Source of the DNA: Blastocatellia bacterium | Lineage (GTDB): Bacteria; Acidobacteriota; Blastocatellia; UBA7656; JADIYM01 | Direction: 5' to 3' | DNA: 64,000 nt | NCBI GenBank assembly: GCA_021463145.1 | Contig: JAJTWZ010000018.1 | Coordinates: 1-64,000 of the forward strand | In this document: piece after piece, positions 19,534 to 29,545 of the stretch | Position numbering within the stretch: the stretch's first letter is position 1 | Layout of the letters: each line of letters starts with the position of its first letter | Notes under the pieces: model-generated | Seen by the model: only the letters and a program-made list of their open reading frames with translations | What the model was told of the DNA's origin: nothing | Databases searched by the model: none | Translations under genes and position numbers: made by a program

Positions 19534-20589
19534 TCAGGCACGCTCGCGCCGCTTCCAGATGAAGCCGTCGAGCACGTAGTGAACGATCTGGGGCACCGCC
19601 AGCAGCGGGACGATCAGGAACTGCAGCCATTCCACGTTCCAGCCCGGCCCGAACAACCACGCCCGGTCCTGCCATACCGCCCGATCCCAGACCAGTTCCT
19701 CCACGTAGGCAAGCACCCAGAGCGTCGCGAGGAACACGATCGCTCCACGTCCGAAAAATCGCGCGAAAGCCGTGCCCGGGATCGCCGCGGCTCGCCTCGA
19801 GGCCGAGAACCACACGATCGCGAGGTACGGCACACCGTGCACTATCACGTTCGTCACGGTGAAGGCATAGTCCGAGTCATAAGCGACGATGCCCGCATAC
19901 CAGCATGCCGCCGTCGTCGCCACGACGATGTCCTTGCCCGGATTCGGCCGGCGCTCGATCCACGCCCGGCTCGATCTCACCGCATAGGCCGAAAGCAGTG
20001 CGACGTACACCCAACCGAACGCGGTTACGGCCAAACCCGGAATCGAGAGCGCAAAGTCTCCCTCGAGAAACCACCAGAAACGCCTTGGCAGATTTGAGTG
20101 CCAGTAAGCCAGCGGATAGAGAGTGGCCGCGTAGATCGTCGCCGCGTCAAGCCAGTGGCCAAGCCGGTCGTATTCACCGGCCCGGCCCCGATACAGTGCC
20201 ACCCATCCATACTGCTGGCGGATAAAATGAAACACCGCCACGTATGCCAGCACGCGCCAGAAAACGAGCGCACCGAACGTGTAGAGCGCGATTCCGGCGA
20301 CGAGAGCCAGGACCGGCACTGCCGTGTATAGCAGAGGCCGCCGGCGCAGTTCCTGCCCGTCGAGGTATATCTTGAACGACGTCGAATAGACGTGCGCAAC
20401 GTCGATCAACAGCACGCACGGCACCCAGACCCATTCCGGCGTGCCAGCAGCCAGCAGACCGAACCTGGCGCCTGCCCAGAGCAGCGCGAACGACAACACG
20501 GCGCTGCCCAGAAACACCGACAGGTCGACTGGCATCGAGAAGAGCCACGGCAACCCGCCTGAAGCGGCTCGTGCGGTTACGGCGCTCAT
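19534..20589 (-). CDS. Polytopic membrane protein, last gene of the polyamine-type operon
   Basis: A 351-residue protein with about eight to ten hydrophobic segments and no recognised family. Conserved-looking charged/aromatic motifs are LIDVAHVYSTSFKIYLDG, FHFIRQQYGWVALYRG and NVIVHGVPYLAIVWF. Buried His residues next to Arg-Gln or Tyr suggest a membrane enzyme rather than a simple anchor. Its ATG overlaps the stop of the FAD oxidase gene (ATGA), and it ends 42 bases before clpS. The upstream open frame is Arg-rich shadow sequence. Function unknown. Context points to a lipid or polyamine-linked membrane step. Confidence 0.75.
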   Translation of the reverse strand: MSAVTARAASGGLPWLFSMPVDLSVFLGSAVLSFALLWAGARFGLLAAGTPEWVWVPCVLLIDVAHVYSTSFKIYLDGQELRRRPLLYTAVPVLALVAGIALYTFGALVFWRVLAYVAVFHFIRQQYGWVALYRGRAGEYDRLGHWLDAATIYAATLYPLAYWHSNLPRRFWWFLEGDFALSIPGLAVTAFGWVYVALLSAYAVRSSRAWIERRPNPGKDIVVATTAACWYAGIVAYDSDYAFTVTNVIVHGVPYLAIVWFSASRRAAAIPGTAFARFFGRGAIVFLATLWVLAYVEELVWDRAVWQDRAWLFGPGWNVEWLQFLIVPLLAVPQIVHYVLDGFIWKRRERA

Positions 20590-22241
20590 CCGGCAAGCGC
20601 CTCCACGCGAAATCCAAGGGCCGCGAGCACTTCCTCGCCTGCCCGCACGCCGTGGGCAAGCGCCTCCTCGAAAAGTGCGATCCGGCTGAGGTCCGTATGC
20701 GCGAAATGCACCCCGCCGATCGGAGCGGCCGCGCGACGCCGGGCATCGTCCCATACGGCGCCGGGCTCAGGCCGGACCATCGCGTGCCCCCACCGCATAA
20801 CGTCGACGCGAGTAGCGAGCTCCCGCACATCGGGATGCGCCATCGACAGGTCCGACAGCGCCACCTCGGCCCATTCGTCGCGTCCGGCGGAAAGCAGCCG
20901 GCGCTGCCCTTCTCGCGCATTCGAATCGGTCAAGGGGTAGTAGTAGGTGAGCACCGTCGGACCGCGATCCAACTCGGTCTGATGGGTCGCCACGACATAT
21001 CCGAGCGACGGACTCTCGACGAGCACGTTGTCCCAGCACATCGGAAAGTTACCGGGCCGCAACTTCGGGCGGTCGCTCAGATGGATGTTCGCCACCATCC
21101 ACGCTCCGTATGCCGGCGCCGGGCGATCCGGGCTGTAGCCGTCGCGTATCGAAGCAACAATCCTGCGCGTCAGGTGTCCCGGAGTCGCGACGATCGCGCG
21201 GTCGCAGCGCACGCCGAATGCCGTGTCTGTCTTCGCGTCCCACGCGACCACCTCGAGCCTCCTGCCGTCTGCTGCGACGCGAACGTCGGTCACGGCCGCT
21301 CGCGTTCGCACGCGCGGCCCCGCGACGCCAGCCAGGTGCGCAACAAGCCGGCCATTGCCTTCAGGCCAGGTCACCAGCGGCTGCGCGGCGTCGTCGAGGC
21401 CCCCGACGCGCGAGCAGAAATAGAAAAGCCCGGCCCACGCGCTCGTCTGCTCGAGCTTCGAGCCGTAGTCGTCGCGGCACGCGTATTCGACGTACCAGCG
21501 CAGGCGCTCCGAGGTGAGTGCGCGTTCACCCATCCAGTCGGCCATCGTCATCCTGTCGAGCGAAATGACATCGGCGTCGTCCGATCCGGCAGCCACGGGC
21601 AAGCCGAATGCGCGTCGCCCGCGTCCGTCCCGAAATGCGATCCATTTGCGGACCTCCGCGACGAATCGCCCATACTGATAGAGGTCGTCATCTGAAGCGC
21701 CCGCGTTCAGATAGAGTCCCTCGTACCAGCGGCCGCGATGGAAGACACGCTCCTCCGGATCGCGGCAGAGGAACTGCTCGGCAACGATGGGCTCTCCCCG
21801 CGCGTCGCGGCCCTCGAGCACGCCCATCTCATCGAGCAACGCGACCAGCGCGCGATCTTCCTTGAGAGGTGCAGGAATGTAGTGCGCGCCCCAGGGATAC
21901 GCCACGACACCGGACTGGCCAGCGCGCGAAGTGCCACCAGACTCGGGCTCGAGCTCCAACAACAGGAATCGTTCGAACCCGGCTCGCTCGAGTCGCCACG
22001 CGGCGGCCAGTCCCGCTACACCGCCGCCGGCGATGACCACGGGGACGTCGTCCCACGCCTCGGCCGCGGGTTCAGGGCGGAATCCGTCACGCAACCGATG
22101 GCCAAGCTCGAACGACGGACCGGCGAGCTCTCCCGGCGGCAGTGGCGGAACCGCCGCGCCGCCACGGCACGCCGCCGCTGCGACCGGGGCGGCAAGGAAC
22201 GACGCCAGCAGGTCGCGTCTGGTCCAGGCGCCTAATCCCAC
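20586..22241 (-). CDS. Tat-exported FAD-dependent amine-oxidase-like protein
   Basis: The 551-residue product starts at GTG 22241 with AGGAG about 8 bases upstream, overlapping the previous gene by 10 bases. The N-terminus TRRDLLASFLAAPVAAAACR has a twin-arginine motif, hydrophobic segment and a Cys (possible lipidation). The dinucleotide fold VVIAGGGVAGLAAAWRLERA and ELEPESGG follow. Further signatures are PWGAHYIP and, near the C-terminus, GGVHFAHTDLS, as in flavin amine oxidases and protoporphyrinogen oxidase relatives. An open frame continues far upstream inside the SpeE-like gene but is a shadow. With SpeD and SpeE homologues in the operon, oxidation of a polyamine or polyamine adduct outside the cytoplasm is a reasonable inference. 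Confidence 0.85.
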   Translation of the reverse strand: MGLGAWTRRDLLASFLAAPVAAAACRGGAAVPPLPPGELAGPSFELGHRLRDGFRPEPAAEAWDDVPVVIAGGGVAGLAAAWRLERAGFERFLLLELEPESGGTSRAGQSGVVAYPWGAHYIPAPLKEDRALVALLDEMGVLEGRDARGEPIVAEQFLCRDPEERVFHRGRWYEGLYLNAGASDDDLYQYGRFVAEVRKWIAFRDGRGRRAFGLPVAAGSDDADVISLDRMTMADWMGERALTSERLRWYVEYACRDDYGSKLEQTSAWAGLFYFCSRVGGLDDAAQPLVTWPEGNGRLVAHLAGVAGPRVRTRAAVTDVRVAADGRRLEVVAWDAKTDTAFGVRCDRAIVATPGHLTRRIVASIRDGYSPDRPAPAYGAWMVANIHLSDRPKLRPGNFPMCWDNVLVESPSLGYVVATHQTELDRGPTVLTYYYPLTDSNAREGQRRLLSAGRDEWAEVALSDLSMAHPDVRELATRVDVMRWGHAMVRPEPGAVWDDARRRAAAPIGGVHFAHTDLSRIALFEEALAHGVRAGEEVLAALGFRVEALAG

Positions 22242-23803
22242 CGCTTCCACTCCTGCTCGTAGTACCGAACGAGAGCCTGATTGTCGAGGCGGTTGATCTC
22301 GACCTCGACCGGCTTCATATCTGCGCTGAAGCGAAACATGGACTGAAGAGCTTCGTCGTTCAGGAATCGCATTCCCTCGGGCGCGACAACTGGCACGTCG
22401 AAGGGTTCCAGCCGCGCAAGCACGAAACCCCAAACGCCGAATGACGGAACGGGCGTCTGGTAGGGCCGCGCTATGAAGCCCGCGGCCTCGAGAGTCCGGA
22501 CAATGCACCAGTACGACGTGCGCGCAAAGAGCGGTGAAGTGCATTGAATGCCGACCGTGGCGCCGGGCGCCAGTCGCGCGCGAAGCAGTCCGTAAAATCG
22601 CGTGGTGTACAGCTTCCCGAGGGCAAACGAATTCGGATCCGGAAAGTCGACTATTGCGACGTCGAACGACTCCTGCACTTCCGCGAGCCAGATCATCGCG
22701 TCGCGATTGACCACCGACACGCGCGGATCGGCGAAGCTGTGGCCATTGAGTTCCGCAAGCGGAGGAAATCGACTGGAGAGTTCCGTCATCCCCGGATCCA
22801 GATCCACAAGCGTCACCGACTCGACGCAGGACCACTTGAGAATCTCGCGTAGCGCCAGCCCGTCGCCTCCACCAAGCACGAGCACGTGTCGAGGATTCGG
22901 GTGGGCGAGCATAGCCGGATGCACGAGCGCCTCGTGATACCGGTACTCGTCGGCAGAAGCGAACTGCAGATTGCCGTTGAGAAAGAGCTGGAATCCCGAC
23001 TTGCCCTTCGTTACGACGATCCGCTGGTATGAGGTCGACCTGGCGTATACGACGTCGTCCGCGTACAGGCCCTCCTCGGAAAGCGATGTGAGCGCGTTCG
23101 CCTTCCAGAAGCCGATGGCGAGCAATGCGATGAGAAGGAACGCCCTGATGCGCAGCCCCGTGGCGCCCCGCCTGATCAGCGGGCCGAGAAGCCACGTGCT
23201 CCACAAGCCAACCGAGGCGTTCAGCAATCCGAAAAGAAGCGACGTCCTGACGAGACCCAGGCGCGGGACGAGGATGATCGGAAAGAGGATCGACGCGGCG
23301 AGCGACCCGATGTAGTCGAAGGCAAGAACGCGCGCGACGATGTCCTTGAACGTCAGTCGATTCTCGAGCAGCCGCATGAGAAGCGGGATCTCGAGACCAA
23401 CGAACACGCCGATCGCGAAGACGAGCGAGTAGAGAAGCAGCGAGAACGCACCAACGCGGGCAAAGGCGAGAAAAAGGACCGGCGCGGCAGTACCGCCGAG
23501 CAGCGCAACGACCAGCTCGACCTCGACGAAGACGCGGGCGACATCCGCCCTGACGAACTTCGAAAGCCACGCGCCGACTCCAAGCGCAGACAGGTAGATG
23601 CCTATGACCAGCGAGAACTGCGTCACCGAATCGCCGAGCACGTAGCTGGCGAGCGTGGCGGCCAGCAATTCGTAGATCAGCCCGCAAGTGGCGATCAGGA
23701 AGACGTTGACGAATACGATCGCCGGACGAATCGGCGTGGCGTCCGCAGGGACGCCAGGCGGGCTGCTGGATGTGTCGGACTCAGCGGACATTGACGGCTG
23801 CAC
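22232..23803 (-). CDS. Membrane-embedded spermidine synthase-like aminopropyltransferase
   Basis: A 523-residue protein. Residues ~28-230 hold about seven membrane helices (FVNVFLIATCGLIYELLAAT, SLLLYSLVFAIGVFVGLEIP). Residues ~270-510 form a SpeE-like domain with VLVLGGGDGLALREIL (decarboxylated-SAM site), VTLVDLDPGMTEL, and VDFPDPNSFALGKLYT, the substrate loop equivalent to the DxxDPxGP motif of spermidine synthases. Fusion to a membrane domain is known for a large, mostly uncharacterised SpeE subfamily. The start is GTG 23803 or ATG 23791. Its product stop overlaps the oxidase gene. It probably transfers aminopropyl groups to an acceptor at the membrane. Confidence 0.88.
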   Translation of the reverse strand: MQPSMSAESDTSSSPPGVPADATPIRPAIVFVNVFLIATCGLIYELLAATLASYVLGDSVTQFSLVIGIYLSALGVGAWLSKFVRADVARVFVEVELVVALLGGTAAPVLFLAFARVGAFSLLLYSLVFAIGVFVGLEIPLLMRLLENRLTFKDIVARVLAFDYIGSLAASILFPIILVPRLGLVRTSLLFGLLNASVGLWSTWLLGPLIRRGATGLRIRAFLLIALLAIGFWKANALTSLSEEGLYADDVVYARSTSYQRIVVTKGKSGFQLFLNGNLQFASADEYRYHEALVHPAMLAHPNPRHVLVLGGGDGLALREILKWSCVESVTLVDLDPGMTELSSRFPPLAELNGHSFADPRVSVVNRDAMIWLAEVQESFDVAIVDFPDPNSFALGKLYTTRFYGLLRARLAPGATVGIQCTSPLFARTSYWCIVRTLEAAGFIARPYQTPVPSFGVWGFVLARLEPFDVPVVAPEGMRFLNDEALQSMFRFSADMKPVEVEINRLDNQALVRYYEQEWKRWD

Positions 23804-23848: not shown

Positions 23849-24076
23849 TCAACCCTGAATTGCCATGCCGATGATGATGGCGATGCCGATGATGATGGAC
23901 GCCATAACGATCGCGAGCGCCGTGTTCTGGTCCTCCTCGATCTCCTTCTGGATCGAGAACGGCGTCACCTTGATCATGATGACGAAAGCGATCGCGAACG
24001 CGATGACCCCGATGACAGCGAAGACAAGCGCCGCGACGAGGTGCGCGATGAACAGGTTGAGTGCCTCAGGCGACAT
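23849..24076 (-). CDS. DUF350 small membrane protein
   Basis: A 75-residue protein with two hydrophobic helices joined by a short charged loop (IQKEIEEDQNTALAIVMASI), the DUF350 signature. DUF350 proteins include YjfL of Escherichia coli, encoded beside a glutathionylspermidine-synthase-like ATP-grasp enzyme. The ATG shares its A with the stop of the upstream peptide gene (TGATG), so translation is coupled. Most family members carry one or two copies of this pair of helices; here there is one. Confidence 0.85.
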   Translation of the reverse strand: MSPEALNLFIAHLVAALVFAVIGVIAFAIAFVIMIKVTPFSIQKEIEEDQNTALAIVMASIIIGIAIIIGMAIQG

Positions 24077-24258
24077 CACTTTCCTCCCTGGTATCCGGAA
24101 TGCCAAAAATGGAACGAGCGGTAACCGCCTGGCGACTGCCGGACGTCCGCGGGCACGAATTCCCGCTCGGAGTCGCCGAATTCGGTGCCGGTCCACGCCA
24201 CGCCGCCGTAGCCGATGATCGCCAGTGCCGCGAGGCCGAGAAAGAACTTGTTGAACAC
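24076..24258 (-). CDS. 60-residue peptide with membrane helix and Gly/aromatic Lys-ended tail
   Basis: GTG start with GGAGG seven bases upstream. Residues ~4-22 are a single hydrophobic helix (KFFLGLAALAIIGYGGVAW). Residues 23-40 are acidic then basic (EFGDSEREFVPADVR). The tail reads SPGGYRSFHFWHSGYQGGK, rich in Gly, Tyr, His and Phe/Trp and ending in GGK at the very C-terminus. It sits between the DUF4178 and DUF350 genes and overlaps the latter by one base. No known domain is recognised. The small size, fixed position between modification-type genes and exposed terminal Lys make it a candidate substrate of the operon's enzymes. Confidence 0.8.
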   Translation of the reverse strand: MFNKFFLGLAALAIIGYGGVAWTGTEFGDSEREFVPADVRQSPGGYRSFHFWHSGYQGGK

Positions 24259-24275
24259 GTCACATCCTCCGTCCG

Positions 24276-26183
24276 TCATTCGTCGCTGGAGCTTGTATTG
24301 AACATGCTCTCGCGCCATCGCCTGGCCTCGAAGTTGGCCTTCACCAGGATGGCGATGAACATACCGACCGAAACCAACACCATAAGGAGCACCCAGTGCA
24401 GCACTCGCGGCACGCCCTGCGTTATGGCCACTTTCGCCTGAGTCGGTTTTGCAAAGTCCTGCCACTGTGCCTCGAGGCGCAGCGTGTATCGGCCCTCGGG
24501 CAAGGACGAGAGATGGGTTTCCGAGAAGGGCGAACCCTCGCTCCAGGATTCGCCGCCCTCGACGCCGCTGTAGAACTCGACAGGAATCGAGAACGACTGA
24601 ACGAGCCCGCTCTCGACATTGACCAGATCGCCTTCGACGTAGAACCAGGAGTTGCTGACGGGAGCCGTGACCTCGACCTTGAGGTTCTCGTGGGCCTTCA
24701 CGTTGAACTCGTCACTGAAGTAGACAGAGGTGGCCGTCGAGCTCTCGAGCGGCTTGAATTCGATCGTCTTGTCGAATATCGGCCTCCGCGGCCCGCACGC
24801 CTGAAACCCGAGACCGACGACGAACGCGAACAGAAGCATCAGTACCCAGGGCAGCACCTTTCCGTTGTGCGGATTCGGCTGGGCCATTCCGACCGTCGCC
24901 GGTTGCGGCATCTCGCGTTGCAGTTTGTAGAGCTCCGCAATGGTGTCACGCTGTACGTAGACGCCGTGCGACCACGTCATCTCGGTAGAAGTCACTTCCC
25001 GGGAGAGGATCTCGGGGGCGCGAACGAAATCGGTCGCGAAGCAGGACTCACCGGTCTCGACGCGCCAGTAAAACTCGCCGTAAACGGTCTGCACGTAGGC
25101 CGTGACCGCCTGAAAGCGCTTGAACGACCTGCTCCGATACGAGGCCATCGTTTCGCCGTCGAAGACGTCGCCTGCCGAGAGCGGTTCGACGAAAGACCAA
25201 TGGCCGGAGTCGTGAACCAGCCATCGGAACCCGGCAAGCGGCGCGTAAATCAGATACTCCTCCCAGCCGTATGTCACCCCATCGACGACGCACGCCCGCG
25301 TCATGTACCCGATGGTCGTAAAAGCCGTCTCGTTCCAGTTGGCGACGGATCCAAGAGGTATGAGCGGAATCGACCGCGACTCGAGCGTTCGCAGGTACGA
25401 GAGATTCCCGTTCTCGACTTCGAGCAGCGCATTGCAATTGGGGCACGTTGCACGTTCCGACTCAGGCGCCCGCAGATCCATCGGTCCACCGCACTGCGGG
25501 CACGTCAGGCGCACGGATCCGACCCTGCGTTCCCGCTGGTCGAAGGAATCCGCCTCGCGTGTTATGCCGATGCCGCCCAGCGTGACTTCGCGGCCGCCAA
25601 AAAGTAACGGCGGAGTCTCGCTGTAGTCGATCGTTGCAAACTGCCCTGCATCGCCCGCGAGGTCGACGAAATAGTACTCCTCGCCGGGAACGAGCTCGTA
25701 CGGGATCTCGCCCTCGGCAGCGATCGGGCGCGCGGCGCCAAGCTCGCTTACGACGAAATTCCCTGGTGTCCCCGGCAGCGGGCCCTGAAGGCCAGGACGC
25801 ACGTTGCCAAGTTGCGGAAGGAGGTTCGCGTCCGCCACCGGCACTGGAAACGTCATGTAAAAGCGTCCCTGAGCTTCGGCGAGCCACCCGGTTCGCCCGT
25901 CGCCGAAGGTGGCATACCACTCGTCCCAGACGCCGCCGGCCTGATGCTGAATCTGAGCGCGGCCTGTCAGGACGAACGGCTTGCCGTCGAATCGTCCTTC
26001 GGTGCCGACAGAAAGCGGTGAGCGCGTGTCGACCAGATCGGCGACCTTGCCGAGGTTGCGCACGTCGCGATCCGTCCGCGCGATCGCCGAGTTGCAGTAC
26101 TCGCACACGACCACGATCGACGCCCCGAGCTTGAACTCGACCGGAGCGCCGCACGACGGGCAATCTGCTCGAGTAATCGTCAT
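24276..26183 (-). CDS. DUF4178 protein with two zinc ribbons and membrane helices
   Basis: A 635-residue protein. The N-terminal zinc ribbon has Cys8, Cys11, Cys28 and Cys31 (CPSCGAPVEF ... CEYCN). A first DUF4178-type beta domain follows, with FVLTGRAQIQHQAGGVWDEW. A second zinc ribbon (CPQCGGPMDL ... CPNCNALL) precedes a second beta domain with WNETAFTTIGYMTRACVVDG and YEFYWRVE-like strands. Two membrane helices lie near the C-terminus (VLPWVLMLLFAFVVGLGFQA, LHWVLLMVLVSVGMFIAIL) around an extracytoplasmic domain. Start ATG 26183 overlaps the speD stop by 4 bases. DUF4178 proteins recur beside DUF350 and SpeD/SpeE homologues. The biochemical role is unknown. Confidence 0.88.
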   Translation of the reverse strand: MTITRADCPSCGAPVEFKLGASIVVVCEYCNSAIARTDRDVRNLGKVADLVDTRSPLSVGTEGRFDGKPFVLTGRAQIQHQAGGVWDEWYATFGDGRTGWLAEAQGRFYMTFPVPVADANLLPQLGNVRPGLQGPLPGTPGNFVVSELGAARPIAAEGEIPYELVPGEEYYFVDLAGDAGQFATIDYSETPPLLFGGREVTLGGIGITREADSFDQRERRVGSVRLTCPQCGGPMDLRAPESERATCPNCNALLEVENGNLSYLRTLESRSIPLIPLGSVANWNETAFTTIGYMTRACVVDGVTYGWEEYLIYAPLAGFRWLVHDSGHWSFVEPLSAGDVFDGETMASYRSRSFKRFQAVTAYVQTVYGEFYWRVETGESCFATDFVRAPEILSREVTSTEMTWSHGVYVQRDTIAELYKLQREMPQPATVGMAQPNPHNGKVLPWVLMLLFAFVVGLGFQACGPRRPIFDKTIEFKPLESSTATSVYFSDEFNVKAHENLKVEVTAPVSNSWFYVEGDLVNVESGLVQSFSIPVEFYSGVEGGESWSEGSPFSETHLSSLPEGRYTLRLEAQWQDFAKPTQAKVAITQGVPRVLHWVLLMVLVSVGMFIAILVKANFEARRWRESMFNTSSSDE

Positions 26184-26560
26184 CGCATCGTCGCTTCGAG
26201 CGTGCCTGCGTGCGCACCCCGGCGCACGGTCCGAATAGTTACGTCCGACGCGCCGAGAGCTTCGGAGAGGCGGTCTTCCCAGGACCATTCCGGCCGGACG
26301 GAGCAGCAATAGAGATTGAACGTGGCAACGCCGTCTTCGGGATACGTATGCACCGCGAGGTGCGATTCCGTCAGCATGACGAGCCCGGTGACGCCACCCA
26401 TTCCGCCGAACACGTGCCAGCAGGGCTCGCCGAGCACCGTGAGACCGAGCTCGGAGATGGCCAGTTCGACGACTGATCGGATCACGCCCTCATCCCGGAG
26501 CGCCGAAGGCCGGCAACCCGAGGCATCCACGATCCACTCGATCCCAACTGTGTTTTCCAT
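26180..26560 (-). CDS. speD: S-adenosylmethionine decarboxylase proenzyme (SpeD, prokaryotic type)
   Basis: Makes decarboxylated SAM, the aminopropyl donor for SpeE-type enzymes, using a self-generated pyruvoyl group. The 126 residues include MLTESHLAVHTYPE, where cleavage is expected between Glu65 and Ser66. His71 and Cys86 correspond to the His68 and Cys83 of Thermotoga SpeD with the same +3 offset as Ser66 to Ser63. It is the first gene of a seven-gene operon on the minus strand, overlapping the next by 4 bases, and is divergent from the gene at 26698. No Shine-Dalgarno is obvious. Confidence 0.95.
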   Translation of the reverse strand: MENTVGIEWIVDASGCRPSALRDEGVIRSVVELAISELGLTVLGEPCWHVFGGMGGVTGLVMLTESHLAVHTYPEDGVATFNLYCCSVRPEWSWEDRLSEALGASDVTIRTVRRGAHAGTLEATMR

Positions 26561-28755: not shown

Positions 28756-28833
28756 TCCTTCGTTCGATCTAGCGCAGTTCCGGGACTTCCGAGCGGCGCC
28801 GGTAGCTGCGCCTGCGGCGCAGCGGTCACGCGC

Positions 28834-29372
28834 GCGAAGCGGTCCAGGACGAGAGCCAGGGGTCACGGCGGTGAGCGAAGCGATCCGCCGTCACCCCCGG
28901 TACGCGCCGCAGGCAGGATCTCGGTCTCGGAGCGGTAGCACTGAAGCCGTCGCGATTCGATATCCACCGTGCTCGCTTCGGGACCGGCCGTTCGACCGCT
29001 CCGCGGTCGGCGCGATGGGGCTGGTGGTTCCGCGGGTCGCGCGCGGAGGCTCGTTTCACTCGCCTGCGCGCGACCCACGGCTGCTATGAAACACAGCCGT
29101 GCGCTGACGCCTGCACTCCGCCCGTTTCATTCCAGGGGGTACGCCGCAGGCGTGTGGGGAACTATTGCATCGACCGCTCCGCGGGCGGCATGACCGCGAA
29201 GCGGTCACAGACGATAGCCGGGGGTCACGGCGGTGAGCGAAGCGATCCGCCGTCACCCCCGGTACGCGCCCCAAGAAGGATTTCGACCGCGGAGCGGTCG
29301 CACTGATTCTTGACGGACGCGACTTCCGCTGTGCTCGTCGCGATGGTGACGGTGCGACCGCTCCGCGGTCGC
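28834..29372. repeat. Repeat island A: composite of 17-bp palindromes and larger modules
   Basis: This fills the 790-base gene-free stretch 28756-29545. A module at 28834-29010 recurs at 29196-29372 with a constant 362-base offset, almost identical over its first ~110 bases. Each contains the stem GGGGTCACGGCGG / CCGCCGTCACCCC around TGAGCGAAGCGAT. Palindromes YGACCGC-NNN-GCGGTCR occur at 28993, 29191, 29284 and 29355. Between the modules, 29024-29170 is a reverse-complement match to part of island B near 45 kb. No open frame or transposase is present. Confidence 0.88.
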
Positions 29373-29545
29373 GGACTCGGCAACGCGCGACCCGAGCGTG
29401 CAGACGAGGCGCTGTCGCCGTGATACTGCGTGCGCCAATCGTCCGGCTCGATTCGATCGCACCGCGCATCTCCCCCAATTCTCCGGGCCGGGAACTTTCG
29501 GACGCAGTGTACGATAGTAGGCGTGAGCGCGTGGGGGACCCCGCA

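Follow-up and report, generated by a model that had tools for sequence, protein, structure and literature searches.

The locus described here raises the question of why a peptide of only 60 residues should be encoded among enzymes of aminopropyl transfer. We analysed a window of 64,000 nucleotides from a Blastocatellia bacterium, in which an operon on the minus strand runs in the order SpeD, DUF4178 protein, peptide, DUF350 protein, fused synthase, FAD amine oxidase and membrane protein. Its features are as follows.

26180–26560, minus strand: SpeD, S-adenosylmethionine (AdoMet) decarboxylase (PF02675, 5e-25)
24276–26183, minus strand: DUF4178 protein (PF13785, 1.9e-27)
24266–24270, minus strand: Shine–Dalgarno sequence GGAGG of the peptide gene, 7 nt 5' of the start, read from the sequence
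24076–24258, minus strand: gene for the 60-residue peptide, with a GTG start and a TGA stop overlapping the DUF350 ATG (TGATG)
24079–24129, minus strand: C-terminal tail GGYRSFHFWHSGYQGGK, with the lysine codon at 24079–24081, from the alignment
24079–24087, minus strand: GGA GGA AAG, the GGK codons and the Shine–Dalgarno sequence of DUF350
23849–24076, minus strand: DUF350 (YjfL-like) membrane protein of 75 residues (PF03994, 1.4e-12)
22232–23803, minus strand: spermidine-synthase domain joined to a seven-helix membrane domain (NF002956, 658 bits; cut-off 472)
20586–22241, minus strand: FAD amine oxidase carrying a Tat/lipobox signal, TRRDLLASFLAAPVAAAAC; start position approximate
19534–20592, minus strand: membrane protein of no family, the last gene of the operon

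The original prediction had noted a tiny gene with its own ribosome site between DUF4178 and DUF350, encoding one membrane helix and a tail of Gly, Tyr, His, Phe and Trp that ends in Lys. Both descriptions proved accurate: the GTG start lies 7 nt downstream of GGAGG, 17 nt separate the gene from the DUF4178 stop, and the 60-residue product has a single N-terminal membrane helix and finishes with GGYRSFHFWHSGYQGGK. No family in Pfam or NCBIfam matched the peptide. A chance open reading frame was rejected, since the peptide was matched in 11 of 58 relatives and in 27 of 297 genomes of the phylum Acidobacteriota. C-terminal sorting signals such as MYXO-CTERM and GlyGly-CTERM consist of a motif, then a C-terminal membrane helix and then a basic cluster; the peptide does not belong to this class, having its helix at the N-terminus and nothing after the glycines and lysine. 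The adjacent DUF4178 protein has zinc-ribbon-like cysteines, predicted hydrophobic helices at residues 443–463 and 594–624 and an acidic C-terminus; its AlphaFold model (pLDDT 85.9) gave only poor superpositions on PDB matches, with TM-scores of about 0.1–0.24. The membrane protein at 19534–20592, which has no Pfam or NCBIfam match, is kept as the operon's final gene in many loci.

To the homologues from the relatives and the phylum, a further scan of 84,980 species genomes added 30 loci, two of which were afterwards judged non-homologous. The fused synthase follows the peptide in 62 of the 64 loci with a homologue, a set that includes several contigs fetched twice; the exceptions are L049, which stops at the contig end, and L060, without a synthase on its contig. 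There are 51 distinct homologues (not counting L065, which proved spurious, and L066, which yielded no peptide match), and L049, being cut by the contig, was left out of the C-terminus count. The prediction that both GGYRSF and the terminal GGK would be invariant was borne out only for the terminus. Gly-Lys ends all 50 distinct complete homologues and GGK 47 of them, whereas exact GGYRSF occurs in 31 of the 51 distinct sequences, the others carrying GAYRTF, GGYRSY and similar variants, and it is missing from the 49-residue peptides of a sister family. Since the length of the tail ahead of GGK also varies, the terminus is held while its neighbouring residues are not. Distribution follows the synthase: 53 of the 297 genomes of the window's own phylum carry the NF002956 fusion, and all 27 with the peptide fall among these, compared with none of the 244 without the fusion. 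One contig (L043, CAMBFS010000002.1) is titled Klebsiella pneumoniae; its operon is close to that of a deltaproteobacterial contig (L042), and the label is probably wrong.

Conservation at the end of this gene has a second possible cause, because the GGK codons GGAGGAAA double as the Shine–Dalgarno sequence of DUF350, and protein function cannot be assumed to be the only reason why the glycines are kept. Across 55 distinct loci the typical last codons are GGA GGN AAR, followed by a stop that overlaps ATG; GGA stands third from last in 42 loci, and in 46 the final nine bases resemble a Shine–Dalgarno sequence. These counts are what would be expected if GGK were conserved only because its codons supply the ribosome site and spacer of the overlapping gene. 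However, in the six homologues without a stop-overlapping start, GK is kept in every case while the third-last glycine has changed in three (to A, P and S). L060, with no recognised DUF350 or synthase downstream, still ends in GGK, encoded by GGT GGC AAG. Furthermore, among 49 lysine-tail proteins (see below) whose next start is more than 12 nt away or absent, and which were chosen for ending in K, such a motif is present in only four. As the whole cause, the artefact is extremely improbable: it was rejected for the lysine and partly accepted for the glycines, whose conservation the DNA partly explains. The terminal lysine is very probably a selected functional element.

In operons without this peptide, unrelated lipoproteins, other short peptides or an extension of the DUF4178 protein have Gly-rich C-termini ending in lysine. 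Our first set comprised DUF4178 loci from Pseudomonadota and plasmids. Because the synthase family then became the basis of the survey, four DUF4178 loci with no synthase recognised alongside (L086–L088 and L130) were dropped from the tail count. NF002956 was drawn in 398 Pseudomonadota, 140 Myxococcota and 149 Planctomycetota genomes, and all loci above the cut-off were examined, four Myxococcota matches below it being left out. Of the 152 fused-synthase genomes or loci sampled from four phyla, 138 proved to have a Gly-rich protein ending in lysine. Tails were assigned by automatic filtering, after which the loci that gave no match were read, so that the assignment involves judgement. By phylum, the counts are 52 of 53 genomes in Acidobacteriota (the 27 that have the peptide and 25 of the 26 others), 42 of 45 Pseudomonadota, 27 of 36 Myxococcota and 17 of 18 Planctomycetota loci. 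The 26 peptide-less Acidobacteriota genomes were fetched afterwards as a test, and the lysine-ended proteins of the 25 lie mostly in the same place; one is a 49-residue peptide ending in GVPFFYSGFRGGK, without the GGYRSF motif. Other carriers include a 48-residue Novosphingobium peptide (GPSHK), proteins of about 100 residues (RGLRGGK), an Alteromonas lipoprotein-like protein (PSSGK), a Burkholderia protein (SYGSHK) and some DUF4178 proteins (SGGSHK). Ten loci taken from 12 plasmid-collection records with a full-length synthase match all have a lysine tail, that of Tritonibacter and some relatives ending in RVK or RIK. DUF4178 proteins without such a tail often have acidic ends, for example DDSSDD.

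A terminal lysine is rare in the other proteins of the operon (DUF350, 0 of 43; synthase, 0 of 52; oxidase, 0 of 32; SpeD, 2 of 38), and 43 of 827 reading frames of at least 300 codons end in K. When any Gly/Ser-rich tail (at least six of 14 residues Gly or Ser) within 2.5 kb on the synthase strand was counted automatically, K was the last residue at 57 of 98 loci, followed by A at nine, R at six and G at five. A hydrophobic anchor, in many cases with a lipobox, is present in 77 of the 79 lysine-tail proteins examined for it, all of them already chosen for ending in K. No lysine tail was visible in 14 of the 152 genomes or loci: L219, L221, L295, L228, L229, L236, L239, L241, L242, L246, L251, L252, L271 (where the contig is cut) and L358. 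In L228 a neighbour ending in VVRGPK was not counted. Seven of the 14, all Myxococcota (L229, L236, L239, L241, L242, L246 and L251), have no lysine-tail protein near the fused synthase, and DUF350, only a weak match in L236, is their one other recognised operon gene.

The catalytic residues of the synthase are intact. Residues D290, E291, D391 and D394 (window numbering) are invariant in 48 of 48 relatives, as are the acidic residues of the motifs DE, GGGDG and DxxDP; these residues have dcAdoMet-binding (dcAdoMet, decarboxylated AdoMet) and catalytic roles. The domain aligns with solved aminopropyltransferases, best with 3anx/1uir (Foldseek 1uir, E 2.2e-17), and its closest solved relative is a Thermus triamine/agmatine aminopropyltransferase. 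It thus shares the fold and these residues with canonical SpeE, but differs in being fused to seven helices and in its conserved QxTSP and VPSFGxWG segments, which depart from the aligned soluble enzymes. In the AlphaFold model (pLDDT 82.6) the helices fit seven crossings if residues 152–205 are counted as two. Since positive charge is concentrated on alternate loops, the N-terminus is predicted to be inside and the synthase domain outside. The N-side of the peptide is the more positive in 42 of 51 homologues, which predicts an outside tail, and a crude scan found a Tat signal on the oxidase in 24 of 32 relatives. These predictions place the tail, the synthase domain and the oxidase outside the membrane and, like the lipoboxes on many lysine-tail proteins of other operons, agree with a periplasmic site.

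The nearest parallel is the E. coli YgiC/YjfC system, whose ATP-grasp ligases attach spermidine as a whole to a peptide. The two enzymes are annotated as peptide–spermidine ligases, and a 2023 paper by Pederick et al. reportedly deals with them. Like the present locus, the yjf operon contains a DUF350 gene (YjfL) and its polyamine chemistry is aimed at a peptide; the partners YjfM and YgiB (DUF1190; K-12 loci L136 and L137), encoded beside the ligases, are likewise membrane or lipoprotein-like proteins with a Gly/Ser-rich C-terminal tail. In contrast, these E. coli K-12 partners, as well as a Salmonella homologue, end in GG instead of lysine, and the operon lacks SpeD and synthase. Conversely, no ATP-grasp glutathionylspermidine-synthase-like ligase was found in the seven operon proteins scanned here, and the peptide ends in GGK, not in Gly-Gly. 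Polyamine-derived chains on protein lysines are also known from eIF5A hypusine and silaffins, but those lysines are internal and no related enzymes occur in this operon. Hypusine derives from spermidine, not from decarboxylated AdoMet. In diatom silaffins, lysines bear aminopropyl units (PMC4557024). A survey of the PSP system (Ravi et al., 2024, PMC11237479) describes, in the sections considered here, an operon of DUF4178, DUF350 and 7TM-spermidine synthase together with a PspA–CesT/Tir pair and a lipoprotein, and suggests polyamine monitoring or aminopropylation of other substrates; those sections mention no small peptide, terminal lysine or C-terminal glycine. The first three components are all present in our operon, whereas PspA and CesT were not found in its seven proteins.

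We propose that the peptide serves as a membrane-tethered acceptor and receives, on its C-terminal lysine, an aminopropyl group from decarboxylated AdoMet, a reading for which we consider the chances to be about even, and in which we infer the transfer, the modified atom and the periplasmic site. SpeD would make the decarboxylated AdoMet, and the membrane-fused synthase domain would pass the aminopropyl group on to the tail's final lysine, with the side-chain amine as the most likely site; the product would be a spermidine-like end composed of lysine and aminopropyl. Lipoproteins, other peptides or the DUF4178 protein carry this kind of tail end in related operons. The Tat-exported oxidase may edit or remove the added group, and a later effect on the envelope may be exerted via DUF350/DUF4178. 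The acceptor role, suggested by the original prediction, gains support from related operons, whose unrelated proteins have nothing in common but a Gly-rich tail and its final lysine; part of the GG conservation, however, is that of a Shine–Dalgarno sequence for the next gene. The terminal lysine is the best candidate for the target of these enzymes. Several points count against this reading: the Shine–Dalgarno role of GGAGGAAA, the 14 of 152 genomes or loci without a visible lysine tail, and the arginine decarboxylase of the genome, which makes ordinary aminopropylation of agmatine possible. Moreover, if the synthase domain really lies outside, decarboxylated AdoMet would have to cross the membrane; the membrane domain of the fusion itself could be the exporter.

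In the main rival reading, the lysine tail serves for docking or regulation, and the synthase fusion, DUF350 or DUF4178 recognises it without any modification; the peptide would then belong to a membrane complex that responds to polyamines, as its assembly or sensor subunit. A tail rich in Tyr, His, Phe, Trp and Gly suits binding, an exact terminus would suit a binding pocket too, and the tail exists either as a free peptide or fused to DUF4178. However, the carriers are unrelated and their tails differ (GGK, SHK, RIK, RRGK), leaving lysine as the main common element, and the division between GG and K termini tracks the type of partner enzyme, a comparison in which the GG side comprises only the two E. 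coli proteins and one Salmonella homologue. On balance we regard unmodified docking as unlikely.

It is less probable still, though conceivable, that the operon makes an ordinary or unusual polyamine and that the peptide is a small accessory subunit with a chemically unused lysine. The intact catalytic residues and the relationship to the Thermus enzyme would agree with this, and the genome has an arginine decarboxylase, so that ordinary aminopropylation of agmatine is possible; the SpeD of the operon is also the only one found in the genome. Such a role would leave unexplained the terminal lysine common to unrelated proteins, and Li et al. are said to have found in 2019 that fused synthases of this kind do not restore spermidine. 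Direct oxidation of the lysine by the FAD amine oxidase to allysine, leading to crosslinking, with SpeD and synthase serving another purpose, draws on the presence of the oxidase in the same operon and on its frequent Tat signal, but the surroundings of many lysine tails, those of L121, L127 and L213–L218 among them, yielded no oxidase homologue, and we consider such oxidation very improbable.

Extended beyond this peptide, the acceptor proposal becomes more tentative: a widespread extracytoplasmic modification, in which the Gly-rich tails of membrane-anchored proteins end in a universal lysine that seven-helix synthase fusions aminopropylate, is possible but somewhat doubtful. Membrane-fused spermidine-synthase homologues paired with SpeD are common. 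If the proposal is true, aminopropyltransferases would carry out a new protein modification, and the two types of DUF350 operon would follow one logic, in which two unrelated enzymes, ATP-grasp ligases acting on GG termini and aminopropyltransferases acting on lysine termini, reach nearly the same end, a Gly-rich tail with a spermidine-like tip beside DUF350. We found no paper in the open-licence PubMed Central literature that states the acceptor idea. Elsewhere in the genome, a second speE-like domain lies in an open frame of 1083 residues (contig C146, L366). Within the window, repeated GC-rich elements of the type gaccgctccgcggtcg occupy 28780–29400, between genes for glutamate dehydrogenase and a sigma-factor-like protein.
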